NCBI GenBank assembly: GCA_963678675.1
Contig: OY783201.1
Coordinates: 16,237,769-16,301,768, forward strand
Reading direction: 5' to 3'
From: Xiphydria camelus
Taxonomy: Eukaryota; Arthropoda; Insecta; Hymenoptera; Xiphydriidae
DNA: 64,000 nt
Below, one piece after another: positions 3-59,140 of the stretch. The position numbers and the translations under genes are program-made. Below the pieces are notes generated by a model that was not told where the DNA came from, did no database searches, and was given only the letters and a program-made list of their open reading frames with translations. The first letter of the stretch is position 1. Each line of letters opens with the position of its first letter.

Positions 3-942
3 ACACTACCCAACGCATATGATTTGGTTATAACAGCGATTCAAACTCTCACAGACGACAAGTTAAGTTTGGCATTCGTAAAAACCAGGCTATTGGATTA
101 CGACATATAATTAAAAAATGAAAACAGTGACACAAGTGCAAAAGTTTTGCACGCCGAAACTCAATTTCGAGAAAAAGTGCAGAGGAAGAATAATGGAACC
201 GAACGTAAATAAAAAAAAAATTCGACAGAATTTTAAACAAAGAAAATTCAATAAATTTTCACAAAGTTTCAATCCACACAACAATCAATATGTTAAAATT
301 AATAACGCAAGGAAATGTGAGCACTGCGGAAGAAAAAATCACGAAAAGAAAAATTGCTTTTATTACAAAAGAATGACTCAAAGCACTGACGACCGCCAAA
401 GAACAATACAAACTGTTCAAATTCAAGATGATAATGGGAGCTTCGCATTTATGAGTGGAGTCGGATCTCTCTCAACCAATCATTCAGACACTGCAGATAA
501 ATCAACCTTTCTACTGGATTCAGGTGCTACTGACCATTTAACTAATGATCTGAACATATTTGCAGCTGTAACCGATATGGAGGAACCGATTAAAATAACA
601 ATTGCAAAGAAGAGCGAAACTATAACTGCAATAAAAAGGGGAAGAATAGAGGTGACAACAGACCAAGGAGTTCAAGGAACCTTAGACAACATCCTGTACG
701 CACCTGATCTACCCCACAATCTGCTATCTGTAAGCAGAATTCAACAAGCTGGAATGCGAGTAACATTTAAAGAGTATGGTAAGGTAACGATTGAGAAAGG
801 CGACAAGATTATTGCAATTGGTGAGTCATTAAACAATTTATGTTGTATTAATTTTACCATTCGTAAGAAAATGTGTAATCAAACCGATGCTTTTGAAAAA
901 AAAAAATGTATAAACTTTGGCATGAGCAACTTGGGCATATAG
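3..942 (+). pseudogene. Copia gag C-terminus and aspartic protease (broken)
   Basis: Two frames contribute. Positions 3-110 encode the end of a UBN2-type gag domain and stop at a TAA near 108. The ORF from 118 (probable gag frame from about 193) carries a retroviral zinc knuckle of the form CX2CX4HX4C (CEHCGRKNHEKKNC, about 316-357), used in RNA packaging. It continues into the pepsin-like protease with the active-site DSGAT motif near 518-532 and the downstream LL.VS element. The end overlaps the next ORF at 906-942 in another frame, a further frameshift. The fragment is non-functional; family assignment is firm. Confidence 0.88.
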
Positions 943-2231
943 AAAAATCGAAATTTTTAGAAATTAAAAGAAATGATTTAGTTCTTGATAATAAACAATT
1001 ACAAGCGATAAATCCCACGGATGAAATTTGTGAAGGTTGTGTATACGGAAAACAGGCGCGTCTCCCATTCGCAAAATCTAGAGATAGGTCTCACGTGAAA
1101 AGGCCATTATTTATAATTCATTCTGACTTATGTGGTCCAATGTCTCCTGCAACAATTGACGGAAAAAGCTATTTTGCTTCTTTTATCGATGAATATACTC
1201 ACTATATAGTCGTTTATTTAATTGCGCGCAAATCAGATACATTTATTGTATTTCAAGATTTTGTTAAGAAAAGTGAGACACACTTCAATTCGAAAATTGC
1301 TTATCTTAATTGTGACACACACACACACATAATGGGGGTGAATATCTGTCTAACGAATTCAAAGAATTTTGTGTACAAAATGGGATTCAATATCATTTAA
1401 CAGTACCGCACACTCCTCAACAAAATCCGATATCAGAACGGATGAACAGGACAATAGTCGAAAAAGCGCGTGCAATAATACACGGGGCTAATTTAGAAAA
1501 GGAGTTATGGGGGGAAGCAGTTTTAACCGCTACGTATTTAATTAATATAACCCCCACAAAAGCCATTAATGGAAACAAAACTCCATATGAACTTTGGCAC
1601 GATAGAAAACCAAAATTAAATCACCTAAAAATATTTGGTAGTACAGTTTACATTCTTGATAAAACAAGAAAAGGGAAGTTTGACAAAAAGTCATTCAAAG
1701 GGATATTAGTTGGTTACCACCAAAATGGCTATAAAGTGCTGAACGTCGAAACAAATAAATTCATAATTGCTAGAGACGTTATATTTGATGAAGTTAATTT
1801 TAAAATCTCACGTTCAGTACACATTAATGAAATTGAATTTGAGAATTCAAGTATAAAAAGGCAGAAAATTGATAGTAAAACGGAAATCAGTAGAAGCGAA
1901 GAGAGTAATATAAATAAATCTGTGACCGAAACAGATCAAGTAAAGAAAATGCCGAAAAGCGACATAAACTCTCAAGCTAAAACAAACGAACCTATACCAC
2001 GACGTAGTGCACGAATTAAAAACATGTCTCCTATTTCTTATAATGAGGAACAATGCTATCAAATAAGTGCACAGGTGGTAAACGATATTCCCCAGTCATA
2101 TAAAGCAATAAAAGATCGAGATGATAGATTTAAGTGGGAAAAGGCAATACAAGATGAGATGGAATCTTTATTACAAAATAATACATGGGAATTAGTACCT
2201 TGCCCAATCGGAAAGAATATTGTAGATTGCA
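906..2231 (+). pseudogene. Copia integrase (frameshifted by a CA repeat)
   Basis: It begins with the GAG-pre-integrase LWHEQLGH motif, followed by the zinc-binding CEGCVYGK segment and the rve core (HSDLCGPM, first catalytic Asp). The frame is lost at a run of CA dinucleotides, 1316-1329, where the codons for the second catalytic Asp (D before G-G-E-Y) should lie. The core resumes in another frame (GGEYLSNEF, then PHTPQQNPISERMNR with the catalytic Glu, about 1329-1445). The C-terminal part includes the copia-typical 'KIFGS' and 'GILVGY' motifs. The CA expansion is a plausible inactivating lesion. A second shift near 2232 separates it from the reverse transcriptase. Confidence 0.9.
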
Positions 2232-3649
2232 CAGATGGGTTTTTAACATGAAAAATGATTCTGAGGGAAACCCACTTAAATATAAAGCAAGGCTAGTTGC
2301 AAAAGGTTTTAGCCAGCAATATCCATCTGATTATTGTGAAACTTTTGCTCCTGTCGCACGAATAACAACTTTACGTTTAATGTTGGCTTTTGCAAATCAA
2401 AACGATTTACTGATCCATCAGATGGACGTTAAAACTGCATTTCTTAATGAGTCATTAACAGAAGAAATATACATGTGAATACCTGAGGGAGTAGAGTCGA
2501 AGCAAAACTAGGTATGTAAATTGAAGAAGGCGTTATATGGTTTGAAACAATCAGCTCGTTGCTGGTTTCAAAAATTTGACAAAGTACTTAAAGAACGCGG
2601 ATTCACAAACTCCTCAGTTGATCATTGCTTGTATATCTTAGACAGAGGTCAAGTTACTAAAAACATTTACGTTTTACTTTACGTAGATGACATATTGATA
2701 ATAACATTTGAAGAGAATACAATGATAACATTTAAAGGGTATTTAATTAATAAATTCTCAATGGTAGACATGAAAGAAGTAAAATTCTTCTTGGGTATTA
2801 ATATTGAAAGAAAAAAAGGAACTATAACTTTAGATCAGAGCTCGTATTTTTAAAAAATATTAAAGAAATTCAATATGAGTGACTGTAAACCTGCTAGTAG
2901 TCCATTAGAGGTTAAATTAAATTATGCCGAACTTAACTCTGACGAATTTTATGATGTGCCTCGTAAAAACCTAATTGGTTGTTTAATGTACGCTATGTTG
3001 AGTACAAGGCCAGATCTTTGTACTGCCCTGAATTTGCTAAGTCGATATCAAATTAAAAACAACAAAGAACTCTGGCAATGCTTGGAAAGAGTTTTACGAT
3101 ACATTAAAGGGTCATTAGAACTCAAGTTGATTTACAAAAAAAATAATTACGAAAACTTGTTAATCGGCTATGTAGATTCTGATTGGGCAGGCAACGAAAT
3201 CGACCGCAAAGCACAACGGGATACTTATTCAAAATGTTCGATCACAACACGATCTGTTGGAATACAAAACGACAAAACTCGGTAGCAACATCTTCAACAG
3301 AAGCCGAGTACATGGCTCTTTTTGAGGGCATTAAGGAAGCATGTTGGCTCAAATCACTTCTACTAAGCATTAAAGTAGATTTATTGAAGCCAATAGTTAT
3401 CTTTGAAGATAACAATGGATGTATTGCTATAGCAAACAATCCAACTTTTCACAAAAGATCGAAACATATTGATGTCAAGTATCACTTTTCACGAGAAAAG
3501 ATCGAACAGAAAGAAGTATAATAATTAAATATATTTCCACAGGTGACCAATTGGCGGATGCATTCACGAAGTCATTACCTCTAATAAAATTCTTAGGCAT
3601 TCGTGAACATATTGGTCTACAGGACCCCACAAAAACAGATTCTCTGTAA
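2232..3649 (+). pseudogene. Copia reverse transcriptase and RNase H (broken)
   Basis: RVT_2 motifs are plain: KARLVAKGF, ETFAPVAR, QMDVKTAFLN, LKKALYGLKQ, and the catalytic YVDDILI near 2680-2700. RNase H follows (GYVDSDWAGN near 3167, SSTEAEYMAL near 3294, HIDVKYHF near 3466) and then the copia tail LADAFTKSLP (3553-3582). In-frame stops at about 2476 (TGA), 2508 (TAG) and 2851 (TAA) and a shift near 3200 break it into four ORFs. The last copia-like codons are at about 3629; the apparent end to 3649 runs into the adjoining repeat. Confidence 0.9.
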
Positions 3650-16244: not shown

Positions 16245-16811
16245 CATCAGAGAACCCCCCTTGTTCTTTATAACCTCCACCAAACACCTTTGCATGCCCT
16301 CTATGAGCGTCCGCATGAGCTCCTGAGTGATGTCCCATGCGTCCCGAATCGCACGTTTAAGCTGCGCCACTGTTTGTTATCTGCGGCAGTTGTCACGCAC
16401 GGTCATCGCCATGATGCCCCAAAGGTTTTCGATGGAGTTCAGGTTGGGAGAACACGCGGTTCGGGGTAGAAGGTCGATTTGATGGCACCGCATCCACTCC
16501 ATAGTGTTGTTCTCGCAGCGGGAACTGACGTGAATCGGGGCGTTATCCTGGTGAAAAACCCACGCCACGTCGTCCCGCTCTTCCATAAATGGCAGAAGAT
16601 GATTCTCCAACACCACTTGGTACCTAACGCTGTTGAGTTTGGCAGTAATGACCGCCAAACGATACTTCCCGTGTGAGCTGAATGCGGCCCGTGTCATCAC
16701 CGATTTCCCGCCGCCTTGCCTTTTCGAAAAGATCCTCTCTTCCATCCAAAGATTGTGCCAATAATAAAGCACGATTTGAGGCAGGAAGAGAGGATCTTTT
16801 CGAAAAGGCAA
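16245..16811 (-). pseudogene. Tc1-like transposase C-terminal half (left arm)
   Basis: Contains the second and third catalytic motifs of Tc1 transposases: VFHQDNAPIHVS (Asp, near 16530-16565) and SPNLNSIENLWG (Asp/Glu, near 16425-16460). The last 40 residues are shifted into another frame near 16377. The N-terminal half and the first catalytic Asp are missing. In DDE transposases the protein cuts and joins element ends; this copy cannot. Confidence 0.85.
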
Positions 16812-17294
16812 GGCGGCGGGAAGTCGGTGATGACACGGGCCGCATTCAGCTCACACGGGAAGTGTCGTTTGGCGGTCATTACTGCCAACCTCAACAGCGT
16901 TAGGTACCAAGTGGTGTTGGAGAATCATTTCCTACTATTTATGGAAGAGCGGGACGACGTGGCGTAGGTTTTTCACCAGAATAACGCCACGATTCACGTC
17001 AGTTCCCGCTGCGAGAACAACACTATGGAGTGGATGCTGTGCCATCAAATTGACCTTCTACCCCGAACCGCGTGTTCTCCCGACCTGAACTCCATCGAAA
17101 ACCTTTGGGACATCATGGCGAGGACCGTGCGTGACAACTGCCGCAGATATCAAACAGTGGCGCAGCTTAAACGCGCGATTCGGGACGCATGGGACAACAT
17201 CACTCCGGAGCTCATGCGGACGCTCATAGAGGGCATGCAAAGGCGTTTGGTGGAGGTTATAAAGAACAAGGGGGGTTCTTTGATGTCTCACTAA
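16716..17294 (+). pseudogene. Tc1-like transposase C-terminal half (right arm)
   Basis: Mirror copy of the left arm. The frame is interrupted by a TAG at about 16966, in the VA.VF position just before the HQNNATIH motif. In that motif the catalytic Asp of HQDNAP reads Asn. The downstream frame (17025-17294) is open to its natural end SLMSH and holds SPDLNSIENLWD. Loss of the catalytic Asp and the internal stop make it inactive. Confidence 0.85.
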
Positions 17295-36457: not shown

Positions 36458-37231
36458 GGAGATAGTTACCGAGCGTTAACATACTATTTTATGAGAGGCC
36501 TTACGACAATCAGTACAATTATTGCAACTACAACTGAAGCCATTTGGACTGTTCTGCAACCCGAATATATGAGTATTCCAACACGAGAATAGTGGGAAGC
36601 GATTGCCGATCGTTACTCTACTCTTTGGAATTTACCAAATTGTTTGGGTTCGTTGGACGGCAAACATTTCCGAATAAAGTGCCTTCTCAAAACAGAATCA
36701 ACGTTTTATAATTACAAGGGGTACTTTTCAATAGTGCTTATGGCATGTGCAGATACTGACGGATTATTTACTACAATAGATTTCGGGGAAATAGGAAGAA
36801 ACAGTGATGGTGCTGTTTTTCGATCTTCAAATTTAGGACGTTTATTGGAATTAGGAATCTTGGAGTTACCACAGCCTAAACCGCTTCCGTCAACGAATGA
36901 TGATTTCCCTTATTATTTCGCAGCAGACGAAGCTTTCCCACTTAAAAAGTACAGAATACGACCGTACTTAAAACGTACTTTAAATAACAAGAGAGACGAG
37001 TTTTTAACTATCGTTTATCAAAAGGACGGAAAAGTGTGGAATGCGCATTCGGAATGTTGGTGTCTAAAAATTTCGTTTATTTAAAAGACCTATCTGTTGC
37101 AAAAAGAAACCATAAATTCTGTCATAAAAGCTGCATGTGTTTTACACAATTTCATTCGTGTACAGCAAGGAATCTATTGTCATCCAACCGAATTTGATGC
37201 GGGACCAGGATCAGCTACTAGTCGATACTGA
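36458..37231 (+). pseudogene. Harbinger transposase, DDE core exon
   Basis: It follows TTTATGTACAG and starts at the GDSYRALTYYFMRGL motif, continuing from the 5' exon family-wise. Catalytic residues are visible: LGSLDGKHF (first Asp, about 36650), IGRNSDGAVFRSS (second Asp, about 36803) and SVECAFGMLVSK (Glu, about 37040, in a shifted frame). The C-terminal VLHNFIRV box lies near 37150 and the frame ends at TGA 37231. A TAG at about 36588 and the frameshift near 37020 inactivate it. Confidence 0.87.
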
Positions 37232-39882: not shown

Positions 39883-41133
39883 CAGGGTGTCCGTAAAGTA
39901 TGGAAACGGTTGAATATCTCGAAAAGTATGCTTCAGATCGGGAAACGAAAAAATACGTATCTGATATATTTTTAAAAAAACTATCAAATGACACCAAGAT
40001 TGATCCCACACCCCAACCCCTGTGGGTGGGGGAGAGGGAAGCTTCAAAATCTTAAATAGGAACCCCCACTTTTGATTGCATATTCGCATTCTACATTAGA
40101 AACTACATAACTTTTATTTGAAATATTTTTTTCGATTCGTGGCAGATGGCGCTATAATCGACGAAATTCAAATTTTTCGGTTTTTGCAACTGAGAGTCGA
40201 TTTATTCGATTCTGCAATACAATTGCGATAGAAATTTACATTTGCTGTAATTTTTGTTTTGCAAATTTGAATTTACAGTAAATATTTTGTCGTTAGACAT
40301 TTAAAAATCTGTTATAAAAGTACTTTTAGCGTAACCCAGAAGCAACGACGTGGATATAATAGTTTTCTGTTCCCTTCGGGGTGCTTGATTCAGGTGAGTC
40401 CTCTCGCCTCTCACCATCGGGGTGCTTGATTCAGATGAGTCCCCTCGCCTCTTACCATCGGGGTGCTTGATTCAGGTGAGTCCCCTCGCCTCTCACCATC
40501 GGAGGAAAAATGGGATAAAAAATAATAAAATCGACGGGTCCGAGCGTTTTTCCAGAAAATGTACCGTTTTCGACATAATCGCATGTTTCCATACTTTCCG
40601 ATGGTGAGAAGCGAGAGGACTCACCTGAATCAAGCACCCCGAAGGGAACAGAAAACTATTATGTCCACGTCGTTGCTTCTGGGTTACGCTAAAAGTACTT
40701 TTTTACCAGATTTTTAAATGTCTAACGACAAAAGATTTACTGTAAATTCAAATTTGCAAAACAAAAATTACAGCAAATGTAAATTTCTATCGCAATTGTA
40801 TTGCAGAATCGAATAAATCGGCTCTCAATTGCAAAAACCGAAAAATTTGAATTTCGTCGATTATAGCGCCATCTGCCACGAATCGAAAAAAATGTTTCAA
40901 ATAAAAGTTATGTAGTTTCTAATGTAGAATGCGAGTATGCAATCAAAAGTGGGGGTTCCTGTTTAAGATTTTGAAGCTTCCCCCTCCCCCACCCACAGGG
41001 GTTGGGGTGTGGGATCAATCTTGGTGTTATTTGGTAGTTTTTTTAAATATATCAGATAGGTATTTTTTCGTTTCCCGATCTGAAGCATACTTTTCGAGAT
41101 ATTCAACCGTTTCCATACTTTACGGACACCCTG
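39883..41133. mobile_element. 1.25-kb palindromic MITE, TA target
   Basis: Ends CAGGGTGTCCGTAAAGTATG, flanked by TA. Arms of about 490 bp are very similar; the centre (40370-40640) carries a 41-bp tandem repeat on one side with a single matching unit on the other. No transposase. ORFs at 40929-41138 and 39871-40089 are mirror images of the same arm and not genes. Confidence 0.92.
40377..40499. repeat. 41-bp tandem repeat, three units
   Basis: Unit CGGGGTGCTTGATTCAGGTG... through CTCTCACCAT, three copies with two or three substitutions. One inverted unit sits in the opposite arm at about 40600-40642. Confidence 0.95.
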
Positions 41134-48080: not shown

Positions 48081-48314
48081 CGGTTCCTTTAAGGTACGAT
48101 TCCGAAGGTGACCGCAGCAATCGACTGCAACTGCAGGCTGCAGACGGCAACTGCAAACTTGTTGCCGCGTGCGGTTGGACCAATGTATTATAGATTGCAG
48201 CGTCACTGCCGTCGCAGTCGGTGTTAAGCGTTCTGTGAATAAAGATGTTTGACGATCGCGATACGTTATTGAATCTATCAGTTATTAAAAAGAATATAAA
48301 AATATTATACTTAC

Positions 48315-48465
48315 TACTTTTATTAAGTTCCTTCCCTATAGTTTTCCCCGCGTTTTCTTTGACAAAAATGTTTCGATAATAATCAACGTGGCTGGCATCA
48401 TAAATAACTGGATGTATAGTCACAATATTGATCAATTTTTCCTCGTCAGAGTTCGAAAAACTCAT
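48315..48465 (-). pseudogene. MADF exon 1, left copy
   Basis: MSFSNSDEEKLINIVTIHPV...SHVDYYRNIFVKENAGKTIG, ending at a preserved GTAAGT donor. It is the N-terminal half of a MADF domain; the Trp of the consensus (KENVWKTIG in the right copy) is changed to Gly. Confidence 0.8.
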
Positions 48466-48712
48466 TAACCTTTAGGGTAACTTTAAGGTACGATTCCGAA
48501 GACAACCGCAGACGGCAGACCGCAGACCGCAGACTTCAGACCGCAGCGGCAAACTGCAGGTGACAGCACTGGTGTCTACGTTTCTCCAGGAAGCGCATTC
48601 GAAGCGCGGCGGCACTGTCGCCTGCCGACGTAGTCTGCCGTGACCGCATACTGCACTACCGCTCCCGAACCAGTAGTGTCGCCGACCGCATGGTAAACAG
48701 TTGTTTTTAAAA

Positions 48713-48860
48713 ATGAGTTTTTCGAACTCTGACGAGGAAAAATTGATCAATATTGTGACTATACATCCAATTTATGATGCCAGCCACGTTGATTATTATC
48801 GAAACGTTTTTGTCAAAGAAAACGTTTGGAAAACTATAGGGAAGGAACTTAATAAAAGTA
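48713..48860 (+). pseudogene. MADF exon 1, right copy
   Basis: The mirror copy, MSFSNSDEEKLINIVTIHPI...YRNVFVKENVWKTIGKELN, with the same GTAAGT donor. The rest of the MADF gene is not in the element, so only the ATG-bearing exon and its donor were kept. Confidence 0.82.
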
Positions 48861-49161
48861 GTAAGTATTTTTATATTCTTTTTAATAACTGATAGATTCA
48901 ATAACGTATCGCGATCGTCAAACATCTTTATTCACAGAACGCTTAACACCGACTGCGACGGCAGTGACGCTGCAATCTACATTCGTCCGACCGCACGCGT
49001 CAACAAGTTTGTAGTTGCCGTCTGCAGCCTGCAGTTGCAGTCGGTTGCTGCGGTCGCCTTCGGAATCGTACCTTTAGTCATCGTCACTATTCTCCTCAAC
49101 GGTGGTAGATAAGGCGGTTACGTCAAATATATTTGTCAATATTTCGGCTGGTCTAACGATT

Positions 49162-49858: not shown

Positions 49859-50327
49859 TATAGCTTAAATGTAAAAGTAATTGGACTACGGTGGGAGTAG
49901 CGTGGATTGATGCATTGCGCCCTGATTGGCTAGAAGGGAATTTAGAACAAGGGTTGACATTGGGTATTTCCCGAGTTCCGGTTCTAGTTGGCAAGGAGTT
50001 AGGCTATACGGAATGATAAAGCGACTTGACAAGACAGGTATTACGTTTATCTGATCGGTCATCTATTGAATTCGTCATTTCTCCCCTTTACAAGCTCCCC
50101 TTTACTGCGAAAGACGGCTTATTCCGACACTTTTGTTAATTGGACTTTTCAGGAAAGGTGCGGGGCTACAAGCTCATTAGCAGCCTAGATTCGCGGAAAC
50201 ATATCGCCTCACCATTGTGACTGGTGGTGAGATTGACTCTAGATTAGAGAGGTACATAGATCGCGATGATACCGAGTGGTAAGAACCGATATATCGAAGT
50301 CCGTTTATTGTGCGACGGAACAAGGTT
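49859..50327. other. No gene seen
   Basis: Flank of the Polinton insertion; part of the older host element. AAGGTT at 50322-50327 is the left copy of the target duplication. Confidence 0.5.
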
Positions 50328-51878
50328 AGTAGATAAGCTAGGACAGTTCTGGGCCACCAACGTGACCAAAAATGGCGGGAAATTTGAATTTGGCGGAATT
50401 CTAACTTACCGACAGAGTGAGGATGGGTTGCGTGCTTTGTTACCGACGGATCAGTGACTTACCGATAGAGCACGGGCGGCCATTTTGAATTTCACCCCAA
50501 CAGAGCTCCACCATTGGTTGAACCCCCACCCCTGGTGCTCTGCCATTGGTCGAACCCCCACTCCTCGACCTCACTCGCTCCTAACGCCATCTCGCGGACT
50601 CCGATCTCGCTCGCAACGCCATCTCGAGGATCCAGACCTCACCGGTATCGCCATCTCGCGGATCCAGACCTTACCGGCAGCGCCATCTCGTGGGCCCCCA
50701 CTTCCCGCGTGCATCATCTCGCAACGCTACTACGCAATCTCTTCCCCTCCCCCACCCGCAGTCGACGTAGAGCGTCACGGCTCGGTTGCATACTTTCAGG
50801 GGTAGCTGCTACCGATGGAACTCTGATTTACCGACGGAGCAAAGCAAATATTTTCAATTTTACCCTGACAGAGCTCCACCATTGATCAAACTTCCGCTCC
50901 CCGACTTCACTCGCAGCGTCATTTCGCGCAATTTCAACGCTACTGAAGAGTTCGAGCTTACCGACAGAGTGGCGTCCTGGTTGCATGCTTTCAGGGGGTC
51001 GAACCCCCACTCCTGGACCTCACTTGCTCGCAGCGTCATCTCGTGGGCCCGCGTGCATCATCTCGCAACGCTACTGCGTACTCCCTCTCCCTTCCCCTCT
51101 CGCGAGCGACGAAGTCGTGCAGGTTCGGACATAGTGCGCCACGACCTGGTTGCATGCTTTCAAGGGCAGCCGGTGCCCACGGGGCTCTAACTTACCGACA
51201 GAACAAAGCAACCATTTTGAATTTCACTCTGACAGAGCTCCGCCATTGATCAAACTTCCGCTCCACGACTTCACTCGCAGCGTCATTGCGCGCTGCTGAA
51301 GAGTTCGAGCTCACCGACGTTACCGACCGAGAGGCATCAGTCGGTAAAAAGGTACGCGCGATCACGTTACCGACTGAGCGGCATCATACAGTAAAGAGGT
51401 GAGCGGTGAACGGTCATTTAGAATCACCGACGAGCAATCGCTCCTCGAAACGCAATGTTTGATAAAGACGTACGCGCGTGCAAGTTCGCACTTGCTCCGA
51501 GCAATCTTGCTATCAAATTTCAAAGGATATGCCGCTACTACGCAGTTCCTACCGACCCGAGTGTCTTATCTGAACGATGACGTCATACCTTATCGCTCCG
51601 CTACTGCGCAGTTTCACACGCCATTCCCGAACGATGACGTCATAGCTTCTCAACAGGCATGAATACGTTTACCTCCCCCACCTCACCCACACCGCAACGT
51701 CTGCTCAAATACTGCGGTTAGAGTCAACCATTGTGAGTGAGAATTCATAAGTTCGCTTCTGAAATACACCGATGAGCAATCGTTGATAGAGAAAATAGGA
51801 TTGTGAAAGACTCCTTCAACCGCTGTATCCATCGCTGCAAACCTCATCAAGTCGCGATTACATAAAGTTGTACCTCTC
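50328..51878. repeat. Left TIR of the Polinton-like element
   Basis: Reverse complement of 57437-59022 with few differences. It contains at least eight TTACCGACNGAG-type words, several CGCCATCTCG.GGA..CC units, GAGCTCCACCATTG repeats, and TGACGTCA motifs near its inner part. The long ORFs in it are mirrored in the other TIR and show no family resemblance, so I do not call them genes. Confidence 0.93.
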
Positions 51879-52131
51879 TCATCGATTCGAGTATCAAGTC
51901 GTTGCAAACCTCGTTGAGTCTTACCGGCGACCATCTGAATAATACAGATTGCGTCTATCGCTGCAAACCTCGTTGACATGTCTTAAACTAAACGCTCTCG
52001 AGTGACGATTCGCAGGTTCGCTTCAAGTAATCGCTGAGGGTGAGGGATGGAGAGAGAAATTTCACTCAATGGAGGTGTTATAAATAAACTAAACACTTTT
52101 TTTTTCTTTCATTCTTTTTTATTAACATTTT
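51879..52131. other. Spacer with GCTGCAAACCTCGTTGA repeats
   Basis: Three related GTTGCAAACCTCGTTGA/GCTGCAAACCTCATCAA words at 51832-51975 link the TIR end to the 3' end of the small minus-strand gene. No coding feature. Confidence 0.5.
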
Positions 52132-52437
52132 TTACTTTTGCACAAATTCAACCATATTTTTCTCGCCGCCAAGATTCTTTAGGTATAGATTATTTTCACC
52201 GCACGCTTTCTCCACTTTGTCAAACTCGTCATCATCGTCGAAGACTTTGCTTACTCGTGCCGGGAGGAAGATTGTGAAATCCTTTTCCACATCCACAACG
52301 ATTTTAGGTCCGTATTTCGTTTTGACCTTCCTCGCTTTAGTGATGAGATATCCCCGGTCGATTTCCAGCTCGGAAAACTTCTTCGTCTCCAGATATCCGG
52401 TCAATCGACCGAGTTCGTTCAATTTAGCGAAATCCAT
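52132..52437 (-). CDS. Small Polinton protein, possible OB-fold ssDNA-binding protein
   Basis: An intact 101-codon frame from ATG 52437 (MDFAKLNELGRLTGYLETKK) to TAA 52132. An upstream extension to 52608 is open but has no start context that I trust, and its composition differs. The central TKYGPKIVVDVEKDFTIFLP has the alternating hydrophobic pattern and Tyr-Gly turn seen in OB-fold strands of small DNA-binding proteins. The N-terminus is helical and the C-terminus acidic then mixed. It is divergent to the polymerase across a 650-bp shared upstream region. A single-stranded DNA-binding role in protein-primed replication would fit its position, but this is inference. Confidence 0.6.
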   Translation of the reverse strand: MDFAKLNELGRLTGYLETKKFSELEIDRGYLITKARKVKTKYGPKIVVDVEKDFTIFLPARVSKVFDDDDEFDKVEKACGENNLYLKNLGGEKNMVEFVQK

Positions 52438-53087
52438 GTTTCTTAGCTTCTCCTTCTTCTTCAAGACGTGACTGACTTCAAGGTGTGACTGATGGTGACA
52501 CCCCGCTGAGACGCGAGGTTTTTGTAGTCCATCGTTACTCGGTAGTGGGGGTAAATCTTGCGCATGGCAATAGCCAATCAGGGTTTCACGTTGCGCCAGA
52601 TGACGCAATGCCTTCCAAGAACTGTTTACCGCGATGGTGTTACTGGAATCCTGGCGATGTCAAGGTCTGTCAACAATTCCAGGAATCGGAACTGCGCAGT
52701 AGCGGTGAAATCCTTTGTAATTCGATCCTCAGAGCAAGTCCGAACCCGCGCGTACGGACGCTTCGCGCGATAAGGCTGGTCGATTCCCCCGTGGCGTCAA
52801 CAATTCCAGGAATCGGAAGTGCGCAGTAGCAGTATATCGTATGACGTCATCGCTCACGAGTGGAAGAACAATCGACCCGCGTGTCATTCCTGAACGATTG
52901 CGTCATACCTTATCGCTCCGCTACTGCGCAGTTTCACATGCCATTCCCGAGCGATGACATCATAACTTCTCAACAGGCACGAGCACGTTTACCTCCCCCA
53001 CCTCGCCCCCACCGCAACGTCTTTGCTTAAATACCGCACGTCGCCGCGATCACGCCATTAGTCACATCGTACTCACGAAACGACAAC
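52438..53087. promoter_or_regulatory. Divergent intergenic region, duplicate of TIR inner segment
   Basis: Positions about 52887-53035 repeat, at about 85 percent by eye, the TIR segment at 51585-51718: TACCTTATCGCTCCGCTACT, CGATGACRTCATARCTTCTC, CGTTTACCTCCCCCACCTC. CRE-like TGACGTCA is intact at about 52842 and degenerate (TGACATCA) at about 52955. AATTCCAGGAATCGGAA..GCGCAGTAGC occurs twice (52674 and 52801). A TTAAATA motif 60 bp before the polymerase ATG could serve as a TATA-type element. Confidence 0.55.
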
Positions 53088-56000
53088 ATGTCTTCGGAAC
53101 AGTGCAAGGATATTGTGAACACCCATCGAGAGGCTTTCGAGCTCATCGCTCGCAAGAGTGTCGATTCCGTCAACATCACGCGATGGATCCGACAAGGGGT
53201 CAAGAGTTTGCGGCTGCTCGGGCGATTGATGCGCTGAGAAGGAACATCGGTCGCCGGCAAACAACGGTACGTGGCCGCCATTCGCCAGGTGAAGAGTTAT
53301 AATCGAAAGCTCAACAGCTTGCTCGTGAGAGGTGGTCGTCTTGATCGGCGCGGGCAAAGACGCAGCGATCGTGTCTCGTGGGAGGATCTCCAGTCGGCGT
53401 TCGACGGACGCATCCGCACGGGTGTGATCGTAAACCTGCAAAATCTGGATCCCGCCGTCTTCCTGCAGGACGCGCTGGCACTCTTCACACCGCGCATCAA
53501 GAACGCGCTCAAGAGGGAGAATGCGTTGAAGGTGAATTCTGTACTGGAAGGCGAGTACAGCATCTTCAAGAATGACGAAGAGATCGTCGAACTGAAGACC
53601 TTCGCCACGAAGAACGCTCCAATCCTGCAGACCACAGATTTGAAGCAGTGGTTCGTCGAGAATGTGCGGCACCCCATTCTCCGGCAAATGGAAGAATTCC
53701 AGGAGCGGGACTTGGGTTGGACGTTGCGAGTCATCATCAACTTGACCGTCAACGTGAACCGGTTCAACCCGATGAGGGGCAGCTCCTACCTGGAACTTCC
53801 AGAGTTTGTCAGGATAAAGAAAGCATGCGTCAACGTGCAGAACACCGACGACCAGTGTTTTAAGTGGGCGCTCCTTTCTGCACTGCATCCTGTTGATTGG
53901 GGCAGGCATTCTAACGGTGTGTCAGTGTACAAGCCGTACGAAAACGAGTTGAACTTTGCGGGTATAGACTTCCCAGTGACGCCGGGAGAGGTCCCGAAGT
54001 TTGAGAAGCAGAATGAGCTATCAGTCAACATCTACATTCTGCTAAAATGTAAAGAAAAATTTTCGGTCGCACCCATCCACGTCACCTCGCACAAGAAGAC
54101 CAAACATGTGAATCTCCTCATGATTCAAGATCGATACGTCGACGAGGAATCGAATGAGAAGGAGGTGAACGAGGATGATGAAACACACCATCTACCACTA
54201 CGTGTGGATAAAGGACCTCTCTCGGCTGGTCAGCGCACAACTATCACGAAGGGATGGAAAGAAATATATATGTGATCGCGCGCTGCCTGCACTACTTCCG
54301 GAGTACTAAAAAGCTTGAAACCCACGAAGTCGACTGCGTCCAGGTGAATCGGTGCAAGGTCAAGATGCCTGCACCGATGCATAGCACCTTGAAGTTTAAG
54401 AACTTTAACTTCAAGGAAAGGGTGCCATTTGTCGTCTACGCAGACTTCGAGTGTCTCCTGAAGAACGTCGACCTGCAGCAGACGAGCAAAACGAGAGTTT
54501 GTCAAGTCCACGAACCGTTCAGCGTGGGTTACTACGTGAGGTGTAGCTACGACCACACGCTCTCCCGCTATAATAGCTTTCGGGGCCCGAAACCCGCTGA
54601 ATGGTTCGCGCGTGAACTCTTTGAGCTGGTCGAGCAGGTCGAAGGAGTCCTCGAGTACACCGTACCCATGGAACCGCTCACGGAGGAACAGGAGAGGGCA
54701 TTCCACATCGCCGAGAAGTGTCACATTTATGGGGAGTCTCTGCTGGATGTGAAGAGAGTTCTGGACCACTGCCATCTCACCAGCAGATACAGGGGTGCAG
54801 CGCACGAAGACTGTAACCTCAATTATCAGGATTCGCGCACCATTCCCGTAGTCTTCCACAATCTCAGCAGCTACGACAGCCACCTCATCATCAAGGAGAT
54901 ATCCACATGCTTCGACGGCCGGATCGACCTCTTGCCCTTGACCATGGAGCGATACGTCTCGTTCGCGAAACTTCTAAAGGGCAGCGACATCGCTCTTCGG
55001 TTCATTGACTCCTTCCGCTTCATGGCATCGTCGCTGGAGAAGTTGGCGTCTTACCTCGCGGAGGCGCCGATCACCAAGAGCGAGTTCCCGCAGATCCAGA
55101 CCGAACAGTTCGAATTGTTGAGGCGGAAAGGTGTCTTCCCCTACGAGTTTCTCGACGCGTGAGCCAAGATGGACGTCACGGAGTTGCCGACCCAGCAAGA
55201 ATTTCACAGCCGTCTCAACGGCTGCGGCATCTCCGACGAGAACTACGAACACGCCCAGAGGGTCTGGCGTGAGTTCAACGTGGGAACTCTGGGCGAGTAC
55301 GCGGACCTCTACCTCAAGACCGACGTCCTGCTGCTGGCCGACGTTTTCGAAAACTTTCGTGACAACTGCATCGAAGCGTACGGTTTGGATCCAGCCCATT
55401 ACTACACCACACACGGCCTCACGTGGGACGCCATGTTGAAGTACACCACCATCGAGCTGCAACTGCTCACTGACATCGACATGCTCATGTTCGTCGAACG
55501 GGGCATCCGAGGCGGTGTTAGTCAGTGCAGCAACCGTTACGCCCGAGCCAACAACGCGTACATGAGGGACTACAATCCCGAAGAGGAGACAATGTACCTC
55601 ATGTACTATGACGTTAACAACTTGTACGGCTGGGCGATGACGCAACATCTCCCATACGGTGGCTTCGAGTGGGTGGAGAACCTCGCCGGTGACTTCCAGT
55701 GGAATGTGTCCGACGACTCACCCATCGGATACATACTTGAGGTGGACTTGGACTATCTTGAAGCCATCCACGATATCCACCGAGACCTTCCGCTTTGTCC
55801 CGAGCAGATGAAGCCACCGGGCTCGAAAGAGTCCAAGCTTCTGACGACGTTGTACCCGAAATCACGTTACATTATCGACTACCGCAACTTCAGGCAAGCT
55901 CTTGAGCACAGTCTACGGCTCACCAACATCCATAGAGCCCTTAAATTCGACCAGTCACCGTGGCTTAAGAGCTACATAGACTTGAACAGCGGTATGAGGA

Positions 56001-56845
56001 AACGAGCCCGCAATGAGTTTGAGAAGAACTTGTTCAAACTCATGAACAATGCGGTGTTCGGTAAGACGATGGAAAACGTGCGCAAACGTGTTGACGTCAA
56101 ACTCGTAACCAAGTGGAAGGGCAGGTACGGTGCTGAAGCACTCATTGCCAAACCCAACTTCCAGAACCGAGTCGTTTTCGCAGAAAACTTCGTAGACGTG
56201 CAGCTCAACAAGATCGAGGTTTTGCTGAATAAGCCAATCTACGTGGGGTTCTGCGTACTCGACTTGTCGAAAACTTGTGTTTACGAGTTTCACTACGACT
56301 TCATTATGCCAACCTTCGAGAGCAATAACAAACTGCTCTACACGGACACCGATAGCCTCATCTACGAAGTGCGAGGCGGGGACGTCTACGACGTGATGTA
56401 GCGTCACATTGGGCGCTTCGACACGTCCGACTACCCCACCGATTACGCCTTCGAGATGCCGCTGGTGAACAAGAAGGTGGTCGGCCTCATGAAGGACGAG
56501 TGCAACGGTCAGATCATGACGGAATTCGTCGGACTCCGAAGTAAAATGTACAGTGTGCGGGTCAACGGCGAGGACCGCATGAAGAAGGCCAAGGGCGTCA
56601 AGTCGTCGGTGCTCGCGAGAACCATAGATTTCGAGGACTACGTCGCCTGCTTGAGACAAAATACCACACAGTATCCCTCGCAGTACCTCTTTCGATCGAG
56701 GCTACACGAAGTGCAGACTGTGCCGCAGACCAAACTCGCGCTAAGTCCGCACGACGATAAGAGGTGCCTGCAGCCCGATACCACGGACACTCTACCCTGG
56801 GGCCACTGCAGAATAACTGATGTAAATATGGATGTGGATGTGTAA
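53088..56845 (+). pseudogene. Protein-primed family B DNA polymerase, Polinton type (decayed)
   Basis: ATG 53088 opens about 1,250 codons. An N-terminal region (53088-54180) includes TDDQCFKWALLSALHP and KHVNLLMIQ. A Cys-rich finger (YICDR, CLHYF, ETHEVDC, about 54260-54340) follows. The 3'-5' exonuclease motifs are VVYADFECLL (Exo I, Asp at 54443), FHNLSSYDSHL (Exo II, about 54853) and YLKTDVLLLADV (Exo III, about 55309). Polymerase motifs are YYDVNNLYGW (A, about 55603), KLMNNAVFGKT (B, about 56036) and YTDTDSL (C, about 56339). Lesions: TGA at 53235, frameshifts near 54185 and 54277 (the second looks like a 4-base GCGC gain), TGA at about 55160 and TAG at about 56399. All catalytic residues are still present, so decay is recent. 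Confidence 0.9.
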
Positions 56846-57196
56846 ATATAGGTGTGTGTATGGAATAGGGTTACGACTGTAAATATAGTTAGGATTACAA
56901 ATGAAAATATAGGCGTGTGTGTGTGTGATAGGATTACAACTGTAAATATAGGTAGGATTACAAATGTAAATATAGGTATGCGTGCGTGTGTGGATATAAA
57001 TATAGGTGTGGATATACTTAAGTAAAACTAAGCGGCATTACGAGAGAGAGCCCTCAAGTACCGCAGCACTAAAGTCTTCCGATCGATTGCTCTGCTCCAT
57101 CCGAAGATTCTCCTCGTATTTAACAGGAGAGTGACGAGTGTCGCCTCTCACCCCTATAAATGAATATAAACATGGATTTGTGGAGGAATAAATGAA
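56846..57196. repeat. Low-complexity GTAAATATAGG repeats
   Basis: From 56821 to about 57010 the words TGTAAATATAGG, GGATTACAA and (GT)n recur at irregular spacing. The rest is a short unique spacer before the chromodomain scrap. Confidence 0.7.
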
Positions 57197-57339
57197 TCAT
57201 TTATTTGTCCAACTGTTGTGCGAATCATTGAAACCCAACCACTTTACAAATTACCTATTTCCGCGTCTCTTGAGCACCCGCTCCACGAGGTAGACGTCGG
57301 GATGTTTGACCGCAGCGAGTTCTTCCTCGTGGAGAACAT
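57197..57339 (-). pseudogene. Chromodomain remnant, probable Polinton integrase C-terminus
   Basis: The minus strand encodes KHPDVYLVERVLKRRGNR, a stop, then FVKWLGFNDSHNSWTNK and a terminal TGA at 57197. This has the chromodomain pattern (Y.VE.IL..RG....VKW.GF...NSW). Polinton integrases end in a chromodomain, and the position (last gene before the TIR, reading inward from it) fits. The rve catalytic core is absent: upstream lies a 25-bp minisatellite and then the TIR. Confidence 0.72.
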
Positions 57340-57340
57340 C

Positions 57341-57447
57341 AGAGATACATCTGGAGTGTATCCTCAGAGATACATCTGGGATGTATCCTCAGAGATACAT
57401 CTGGGGTGTATCCTCAGAAATACATCTGGAGTGTATCCTCAGAGATA
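57341..57447. repeat. 25-bp minisatellite, 4.3 units
   Basis: Unit AGAGATACATCTGGAGTGTA TCCTC, starting at 57341, 57366, 57391, 57416 and a partial unit at 57441. It lies exactly between the integrase scrap and the start of the right TIR. Confidence 0.97.
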
Positions 57448-59022
57448 CAACTTTATGTAATCGCGACTTGATGAGGTTTGCAGCGATGGATACAGCGGTT
57501 GAAGGAGTCTTTCACAATCCTATTTTCTCTATCAACGATTGCTCATCGGTGTATTTCAGAAGCGAACTTATGAATTCTCACTCACAATGGTTGACTCTAA
57601 CCGCAGTATTTGAGCAGACGTTGCGGTGTGGGTGAGGTGGGGGAGGTAAACGTATTCATGCCTGTTGAGAAGCTATGACGTCATCGTTCGGGAATGGCGT
57701 GTGAAACTGCGCAGTAGCGGAGCGATAAGGTATGACGTCATCGTTCAGATAAGACACTCGGGTCGGTAGGAACTGCGTAGTAGCGGCATATCCTTTGAAA
57801 TTTGATAGCAAGATTGCTCGGAGCAAGTGCGAACTTGCACGCGCGTACGTCTTTATCAAACATTGCGTTTCGAGGAGCGATTGCTCGTCGGTGATTCTAA
57901 ATGACCGTTCACCGCTCACCTCTTTACTGTATGATGCCGCTCAGTCGGTAACGTGATCGCGCGTACCTTTTTACCGACTGATGCCTCTCGGTCGGTAACG
58001 TCGGTGAGCTCGAACTCTTCAGCAGCGCGCAATGACGCTGCGAGTGAAGTCGTGGAGCGGAAGTTTGATCAATGGCGGAGCTCTGTCAGAGTGAAATTCA
58101 AAATGGTTGCTTTGTTCTGTCGGTAAGTTAGAGCCCCGTGGGCACCGGCTGCCCTTGAAAGCATGCAACCAGGTCGTGGCGCACTATGTCCGAACCTGCA
58201 CGACTTCGTCGCTCGCGAGAGGGGAAGGGAGAGGGAGTACGCAGTAGCGTTGCGAGATGATGCACGCGGGCCCACGAGATGACGCTGCGAGCAAGTGAGG
58301 TCCAGGAGTGGGGGTTCGACCCCCTGAAAGCATGCAACCAGGACGCCACTCTGTCGGTAAGCTCGAACTCTTCAGTAGCGTTGAAATTGCGCGAAATGAC
58401 GCTGCGAGTGAAGTCGGGGAGCGGAAGTTTGATCAATGGTGGAGCTCTGTCAGGGTAAAATTGAAAATATTTGTTTTGCTCCGTCGGTAAATCAGAGTTC
58501 CATCGGTAGCAGCTACCCCTGAAAGTATGCAACCGAGCCGTGACGCTCTACGTCGATTGCGGGTGGGGGAGGGGAAGAGATTACGTAGTAGCGTTGCGAG
58601 ATGATGCACGCGGGAAGTGGGGGCCCACGAGATGGCGCTGCCGGTAAGGTCTGGATCCGCGAGATGGCGATACCGGTGAGGTCTGGATCCTCGAGATGGC
58701 GTTGCGAGCGAGATCGGAGTCCGCGAGATGGCGCTACCGGTGAGTTCTGAATCCGCGAGATGGCGTTGCGAGCGAGTGAGGTCGAGGAGTGAGGGTTCGA
58801 CCAATGGCAGAGCTCCAGGGGTGGGGGTTCAACCAGTGGTGGAGCTCTGTTGGGGTGAAATTCAAAATGGCCGCCCGTGCTCTATTGGTAAGTCACTGAT
58901 CCGTCGGTAACAAAGCACGCAACCCATCCGCACTCCGTCGGTAAGTTGAAATTCCGCCAAATTCAAATTTCCCGCCATTTTTGGTCACGTGGGTGGCCCG
59001 TAACTGTCCTAGCTTATCTACT
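57437..59022. repeat. Right TIR of the Polinton-like element
   Basis: Inverted copy of 50328-51878. The high identity of the two arms, including all the TTACCGAC words, suggests recent replication or conversion. One extra CGCCATCTCG-type unit near 58730-58770 makes it slightly longer. Confidence 0.93.
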
Positions 59023-59140
59023 AAGGTTGTTTGGCTCATATTTCAATTATCCACAGAACATTTTTAATGCGAATATGAAGAAAAAAAATCCCAGCAATAG
59101 CCAAACGTGAGCAGTTACAAGAATGTACTAATTGTAAGAT

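Follow-up and report, generated by a model that had tools for sequence, protein, structure and literature searches.

An integrase-less 8.7-kb element of Xiphydria camelus is probably a non-autonomous, rearranged Polinton

Introduction

How can an 8.7-kb element that holds no more of an integrase gene than its tail come to lie between two perfect copies of a target site? This question is raised by a stretch of 64,000 nucleotides from the hymenopteran Xiphydria camelus (contig OY783201.1; C29:16237769-16301768 in our contig numbering), hereafter the window, in which a Polinton-like element with long terminal inverted repeats (TIRs) occupies positions 50328-59022. A sequence-only reading had described this element as a bounded unit that kept a replication module only, and had put it forward as a candidate for an undescribed system. 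In this study we analysed the element together with its relatives in the genome (357 Mb, 38 contigs), and we give a probability of roughly 85% to the reading that it is a non-autonomous, internally deleted and rearranged Polinton (Maverick) integrated in trans, the source of the integrase most likely being larger relatives in the same genome. The perfect target duplication and the near-identical TIRs around an element without integrase speak for this reading. Furthermore, its gene remnants, tips and duplication length are shared with ordinary Polintons of the genome, and therefore point to a deletion and rearrangement derivative; the proposal of an undescribed system is not supported.

Polintons are stated to be 15-20 kb long (PMC4028283), intact vertebrate Mavericks measure 12.7-24.6 kb with TIRs of 46-1,447 bp (PMC8097293), and wasps can be Maverick-rich (PMC6035795). 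One survey dropped Polinton-like elements shorter than 10 kb as incomplete (PMC4028283).

Results

Ends and gene content of the element

The element is complete and 8,695 bp long, with both ends in place, and its tips are AGTAGATAAG. The left end reads AAGGTT followed by AGTAGATAAGCTAGG, and the right end closes with CTTATCTACT (to 59022) followed by AAGGTT, so that the two AAGGTT copies form a perfect 6-bp target site duplication. This is no chance match, because a perfect 6-bp duplication surrounds 15 of the 17 copies in which both tips were read (1.1-19.5 kb), whatever their content. The TIRs have AG...CT ends and both carry 162 bp of the flank of a small open reading frame (ORF); they differ by 17 substitutions over 1,550 aligned bases (1.10%) and by a single 32-bp gap event. 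Among the 12 copies measured, TIR divergence within a copy is lowest here and in L032 (1.28%). The G+C content of 2-kb bins is 47-53% across the element and 32-43% in the rest of the window. Tip reading and TIR alignment thus confirmed the complete element with AG...CT termini, TIRs of about 1.55 kb and a perfect AAGGTT duplication that had been read from the sequence. Its features, including a family B DNA polymerase (PolB) gene, are as follows.

50322-50327: left target site duplication, AAGGTT
50328-51877 (+): left TIR, 1,550 bp, with internal tandem and direct repeats
52132-52437 (-): 101-aa ORF, function unassigned; matched by tblastn, whole or in pieces, in 9 of the 20 loci L031-L050
52868-52876: join J1 (approximate), small-ORF cassette to the inner TIR piece ahead of PolB; also at C1:23802079 and C29:16957688
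52873-53037 (+): inner TIR piece ahead of PolB, 88% like TIR positions 1226-1388
53090-56845 (+): PolB pseudogene, pieces in more than one frame
57200-57346 (-): 3' end of an integrase gene, convergent to PolB
57339-57450: 25-bp tandem repeats joined directly to the integrase tail, the arrangement that recombination between the copies of a 68-75-bp direct repeat would give
57437-57452: join J2 (approximate) between the 25-bp repeats and the TIR, not seen at another locus
57441-59022 (-): right TIR, 1,582 bp, including the 162 bp of small-ORF flank
59023-59028: right target site duplication, AAGGTT

Two pieces of the window PolB match Pfam DNA_pol_B_2 (PF03175), with E 2.4e-17 and E 3.2e-5 (the latter under the Pfam cut-off), and the nearest named proteins belong to Leptopilina wasps (64-68% identity) and to ants. 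In one alignment with the intact frame of L032, the gene contains three frame-changing gaps and four stops, two of the latter also present in another copy. It is a pseudogene, and because PolB is broken the window copy has no working replication module, contrary to what had been supposed. The integrase tail, on the other hand, is real as proposed: tblastn shows 88% amino acid identity over 49 residues, with 93% nucleotide identity over 134 bases, to the end of an ORF with a Pfam rve match, which rules out a misread PolB end. No further integrase match was found in the window by tblastn with the integrase, and the ATPase and protease-candidate DNA modules of the relative L047 have no match in the element. 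No capsid was named by Pfam among the scanned ORFs, no capsid reference having been compared. The 101-aa ORF has no relative in the protein database and gave nothing up to E 1 in a PDB search; its predicted fold has a mean predicted local distance difference test score (pLDDT) of 43.7. A search of viral contigs found no relatives of this ORF or of PolB, and an Rfam scan of the window returned nothing.

A swarm of relatives

Genome-wide counts refer to the scored candidates, namely 40 of 370 for the left TIR, 128 of 972 for the integrase, 102 of 326 for PolB, 40 of 123 for J1, 40 of 256 for the fused tail and J2, and 40 of 290 for the small ORF. The left TIR has at least 93 matches in the genome. 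Modules were mapped on 19 copies including the window element, taken from loci around the best TIR matches; L037 and L042, in which a single tip was read, are left out of the two-tip counts. The 17 two-tip copies are the window element (8.7 kb), L031 (9.6 kb), L032 (8.2 kb), L033 (6.7 kb), L034 (8.7 kb), L035 (7.5 kb), L036/51 (10.6 kb), L038/39 (13.3 kb), L040 (8.3 kb), L041/52 (12.65 kb), L043/44 (19.5 kb), L045/46 (15.5 kb), L047/48 (12.0 kb), L049 (3.5 kb), L050 (7.0 kb), L053 (1.1 kb) and L054 (1.3 kb). PolB, whole or in part, is present in 14 of them, of which 12 have no integrase beyond a tail and two have one. Copies with a perfect duplication include some with partial or no PolB (L049, L050, L053, L054) and some without the small ORF (L032, L033, L034, L040, L049, L053, L054).

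A one-off deletion, all other copies being full length, is excluded, because copies that share the tips and lack integrase are common elsewhere in the genome. The search for copies through the TIR thus yielded such integrase-less copies (12 of the 14 with PolB), but the whole window structure was not read twice.

Some long copies contain other transposons, such as a reverse transcriptase and a P-like transposase in L043/44, and a 2.7-kb insertion in L045 (6370-9060) with inverted arms of about 1.06 kb (98%), which splits the protease candidate of this 15.5-kb relative. L050 (342-7296), 7.0 kb long, lacks PolB, and in it the first 132 integrase codons form an inverted pair flanking an ORF of the DUF8207 family; the same pair of integrase starts lies at C10:29900183/29902879, so that this build is found at two loci.

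Fuller relatives and their integrase

Over the terminal 300 bp or so, the fuller relatives L047/48 and L045/46 are 81-83% like the window element. They contain a diverged small ORF, unnamed ORFs, an ATPase stretch, a protease candidate, a DUF8207 end, an integrase and a convergent PolB. The ATPase stretch, split across two ORFs in L047, has a weak poxvirus A32 match (E 7e-4, under the Pfam cut-off), and the protease candidate was confirmed by no search (best viral protease match E 0.51). The integrase matches Pfam rve (E 4e-10), with a sub-threshold chromodomain match. L047/48, which has both tips read and a perfect duplication of its own, carries an open 308-aa integrase frame that matches 10 PDB integrase sequences (E 4e-7 to 8e-4). 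PolB is broken in both relatives as well, so neither can be called autonomous. In the genome there are at least 129 integrase matches, 56 of them of at least 250 aa, and 36 of these 56 are stop-free ORFs.

Another locus, L055, has an integrase of a different subgroup next to a PolB sequence 92% like that of the window, and the end of this integrase is the closest to the window tail (95.5% nucleotide identity, versus 93.3% for L047). About 4.4 kb away, L056 has the PolB-side tip AGTAGATAAGCTATGGGGG, as in L032; the DNA between the two is known from a PolB match. Thus the window element shares tips and duplication length with L047/48 and L045/46, and a tip with L055/56. The larger same-tip relative with integrase for which a search had been advised does exist: L047/48 (two tips) and L055/56 (PolB-side tip) have an open integrase, and the 15.5-kb L045/46 also carries one.

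Integrase-less types

A PolB match was scored as associated with an integrase when a listed integrase lay within 3 kb in the convergent place. By this measure 66 of 102 listed PolB matches have no listed integrase, 9 a partial and 27 a full one; the figure of 66 may be an overcount, because the integrase list covers scored candidates only. Spacings were analysed for 30 of 135 matches of the fused-tail search, 23 of 102 PolB places and 9 of 129 integrase places.

One build, type C, has the order PolB, integrase end, DUF8207, copy of the integrase end and 25-bp repeats, as read in L032, L033, L034 and L040. Spacing assigns 11 places to it, L032 among them, with 1.70-2.04 kb from PolB to the integrase-end copy and no integrase nearby, as checked by eye against the integrase match list; at the single integrase-bearing place where both are listed this spacing is 3.14 kb. 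In total, type C comprises 14 loci, DUF8207 being read at 4 and placed by spacing at 10. In type D the integrase tail is fused (spacing 0.72-0.93 kb), and its five loci are the window, L031, C1:23806434, C10:23789890, where the same strand holds a fragment of integrase some 2 kb further on, and C6:26600633. Type B comprises L035, L036 and L041, which have in common a join from the PolB end to a piece of the ATPase stretch.

The DUF8207 (PF26634) ORF of L032 (2015-2926, +) has 304 codons from stop to stop and is conserved in local Polinton copies; its relatives in the database number 550 or more, with many from Hymenoptera. A Pfam scan of the ORF itself gave nothing up to E 0.1. That it forms an unnamed family is ruled out, as the precomputed domains of its relatives are PF26634.

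Constraint on PolB and a possible half-autonomous lineage

The short elements might form a half-autonomous lineage, in which selection in cis would maintain their own PolB and integrase alone would be borrowed, the window element being a recently broken member. In favour of this, four of the 11 spacing-placed members of type C, itself found at 14 loci, have stop-free PolB ORFs of 1,268-1,270 aa (L032, C1:28243905, C6:18609867 and C6:12285464), and L032 is complete, with a perfect duplication and an open frame of 1,270 aa (a PDB search with this PolB returned nothing up to E 1). Moreover, in nine integrase-less copies the variable sites with at least two copies per state fall 45/31/123 on the codon positions of the L032 frame (binomial p 2e-16, against a null of one third that, here and below, ignores mutation bias and relatedness), and PolB has thus been under constraint. 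States found in a single copy are less biased to position 3 than these shared sites: the position-3 share is 0.49 in the window element (21/15/34, p 0.006), 0.41 in L031 (p 0.13), 0.20 in L033, 0.38-0.50 in L034, L035, L036 and L040, 0.67 in L041 and 0.68 in L032 (3/4/15, p 0.0009).

Against such a lineage, stop-free PolB frames of at least 1,200 aa are rarer without integrase (6/66) than with a full one (5/27). At 90% identity or more they number 4/31 without integrase, 0/4 with a partial and 4/22 with a full one, and below 90% identity 2/35, 2/5 and 1/5, respectively. The perfect duplications of L049, L050, L053 and L054, which have part of PolB or none, also argue against it. Furthermore, the PolB of L032 is closest to that of L041 (98.4%), a differently built copy, so the integrase losses may be separate and recent; the constraint is not thereby placed in integrase-less elements and may go back to ancestors that still had integrase. 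The tree built from 12 PolB sequences, without the partial L033, L038 and L049, is mostly unresolved, with 3 of 9 inner branches well supported, and the structural types are not clean clades in it. We thus regard as possible, with less than even odds, that the genome hosts elements of about 8 kb which keep PolB, with DUF8207, under selection and take integrase from full-size relatives, the window element being a further reduced offshoot. The sequence-only reading had offered a choice between the integrase of another element and a compact, borrowing lineage. Borrowing is probable, as there is no usable integrase and integrase-bearing relatives share the tips, but the window copy does not carry working replication genes; for the family as a whole, it is plausible that a compact lineage takes its integrase from elsewhere.

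Joins within the element

In type C, DUF8207 is flanked by direct repeats of 68-75 bp, 89-93% alike, which derive from the integrase 3' end (4 of 4 copies tested). The upstream repeat copy also lies 1.42-1.54 kb upstream of the integrase at five integrase-bearing places, so the direct repeat did not arise from the integrase loss. In the window and in L031, the left side of the fused tail matches one repeat copy and the right side the other, the pattern that recombination yields, and the direct repeat therefore explains the tail. A fused tail is what one recombination step, in an integrase-bearing element or in type C, would produce.

J1 occurs at three loci, the window and C1:23802079 and C29:16957688, the latter two sharing it at 96-97% and both having PolB nearby; it had appeared private to the window among the fetched loci, a view overturned by the two further genome loci. 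J2 joins the 25-bp repeats to the TIR with its small-ORF flank, and TACA is common to both partners. In L031, L035 and L036 the small ORF is found at the TIR opposite to the one where PolB starts, and the PolB segment of the window is inverted relative to these.

It could also be that a full-length Polinton inserted at AAGGTT and then lost or rearranged its middle in place, the short form never having moved. This would fit J2 and the exact overall structure, both found only at the window locus. The fused tail at five loci and J1 at three indicate, however, that at least these changes were not local, the small-ORF flank on both TIRs (1.1% apart) is not given by simple internal loss, and short copies elsewhere have perfect duplications; we consider in-place loss improbable. 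Finally, a different mobile system, integrated by the small-ORF product or by PolB, is scarcely credible: the small ORF does match 9 of the 20 loci L031-L050 and has no database relative, but copies without it have perfect duplications, an integrase remnant is present, and the integrase-bearing relatives share tips and duplication length.

Other repeats in the window

Outside the element, the window contains a retroelement remnant at 115-2251 (+), with overlapping frames matching Pfam Pol_BBD, gag_pre-integrs, retroviral SH3-like and, weakly, rve, which from these domains we take to be copia-like. Inverted arms of 431 bp (94%), 10 bp apart, lie at 16328-17199 around an ORF matching Pfam DDE_3 (16377-16850, -), and a second transposase family is represented by an ORF matching DDE_Tnp_4 (36593-37084, +). 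Positions 39966-41052 are foldback-like (455-bp inverted arms, 97% complementary, 177 bp apart), and nested inverted repeats lie just left of the element (48091-49074), one arm pair being 114 bp long and 100% complementary.

Discussion

The window element is best called a non-autonomous Polinton variant in an unusually well-preserved swarm. It has the 6-bp duplication, the long AG...CT TIRs, a PF03175 PolB and an RVE integrase remnant convergent to PolB, as in Polintons (Mavericks, polintoviruses), and same-tip relatives in the genome carry integrase and a weakly matching ATPase. It differs from them in its length of 8.7 kb, in lacking integrase, ATPase and protease, and in a broken PolB set head to head with the small ORF. 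Thus, of the marks of an autonomous Polinton it shows the duplication and the TIRs, and neither an intact PolB, an RVE integrase, ATPase or protease, nor the usual length; it has those of a non-autonomous derivative, namely tips and duplication length shared with integrase-bearing relatives, and a duplicated target despite the missing integrase.

How such a structure may have arisen can be sketched from the order of a fuller relative: TIR, small ORF, unnamed ORFs, ATPase, 25-bp repeats, (protease candidate), DUF8207, integrase, then convergent PolB and TIR. The direct repeat at the integrase 3' end and upstream of DUF8207 would have let DUF8207 and the integrase go, leaving the fused tail, and the remaining middle genes would also have been lost. 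Two further joins would have brought PolB and the small ORF into a head-to-head position and given both ends the same TIR; recombination, or template switching during linear replication, may be the cause, and the order of these events is our suggestion. The reduced element would then have been integrated at AAGGTT by the integrase of larger relatives recognising the shared tips, a supply in trans that probably extended to the polymerase.

Several observations weigh against integration in trans of an already reduced element. J2 was not found elsewhere among the matches listed, and at no other locus was the entire window structure read together with its two tips. At C29:16957688 the small-ORF stretch is kept and the adjoining TIR is missing; at C1:23802079 no small-ORF match is listed and no TIR lies in the 1.5 kb upstream. 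These two J1 loci, lacking a window-like TIR where it is expected, may be truncated, and the data are also compatible with spread of J1 by segmental duplication. The duplication of L031 matches at 5 of 6 bases, and L041/52, which looks composite, has none. Moreover, that the integrase of the relatives acted on the window tips is itself something we infer from sequence comparison.

Movement in trans of non-autonomous DNA transposons is defined in PMC6431247. Like these transposons and miniature inverted-repeat transposable elements (MITEs), the swarm has copies with ends kept and enzyme gone, coexisting with enzyme-bearing relatives with the same ends, and L053 and L054 (1.1-1.3 kb) are MITE-like; unlike them, most PolB-bearing short copies still hold a good part of a large replication gene. 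In linear DNA viruses with protein-primed replication, defective genomes arise by deletion and rearrangement; they lose their middle and have terminal segments rejoined between long inverted termini. The window element resembles them in the middle loss and the rejoined terminal segments, and differs in that the copies here are chromosomal, with no extrachromosomal replication observed. Among the titles and abstract openings listed for non-autonomous, defective or miniature Polintons and Mavericks, none concerned an integrase-less, PolB-bearing lineage, subscription papers and Repbase lying outside this search.

The same tips and perfect duplications on copies of 1.1-19.5 kb in one genome indicate that Polinton ends suffice for dispersal. 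The swarm thus offers a naturally occurring way to separate functions needed in cis from those supplied in trans: a single copy can do without integrase, and PolB is open in 4 of the 11 spacing-placed members of type C. Length filters at 10 kb, as in PMC4028283, would miss such a swarm. If the half-autonomous lineage proved true, it would split replication in cis from integration in trans.

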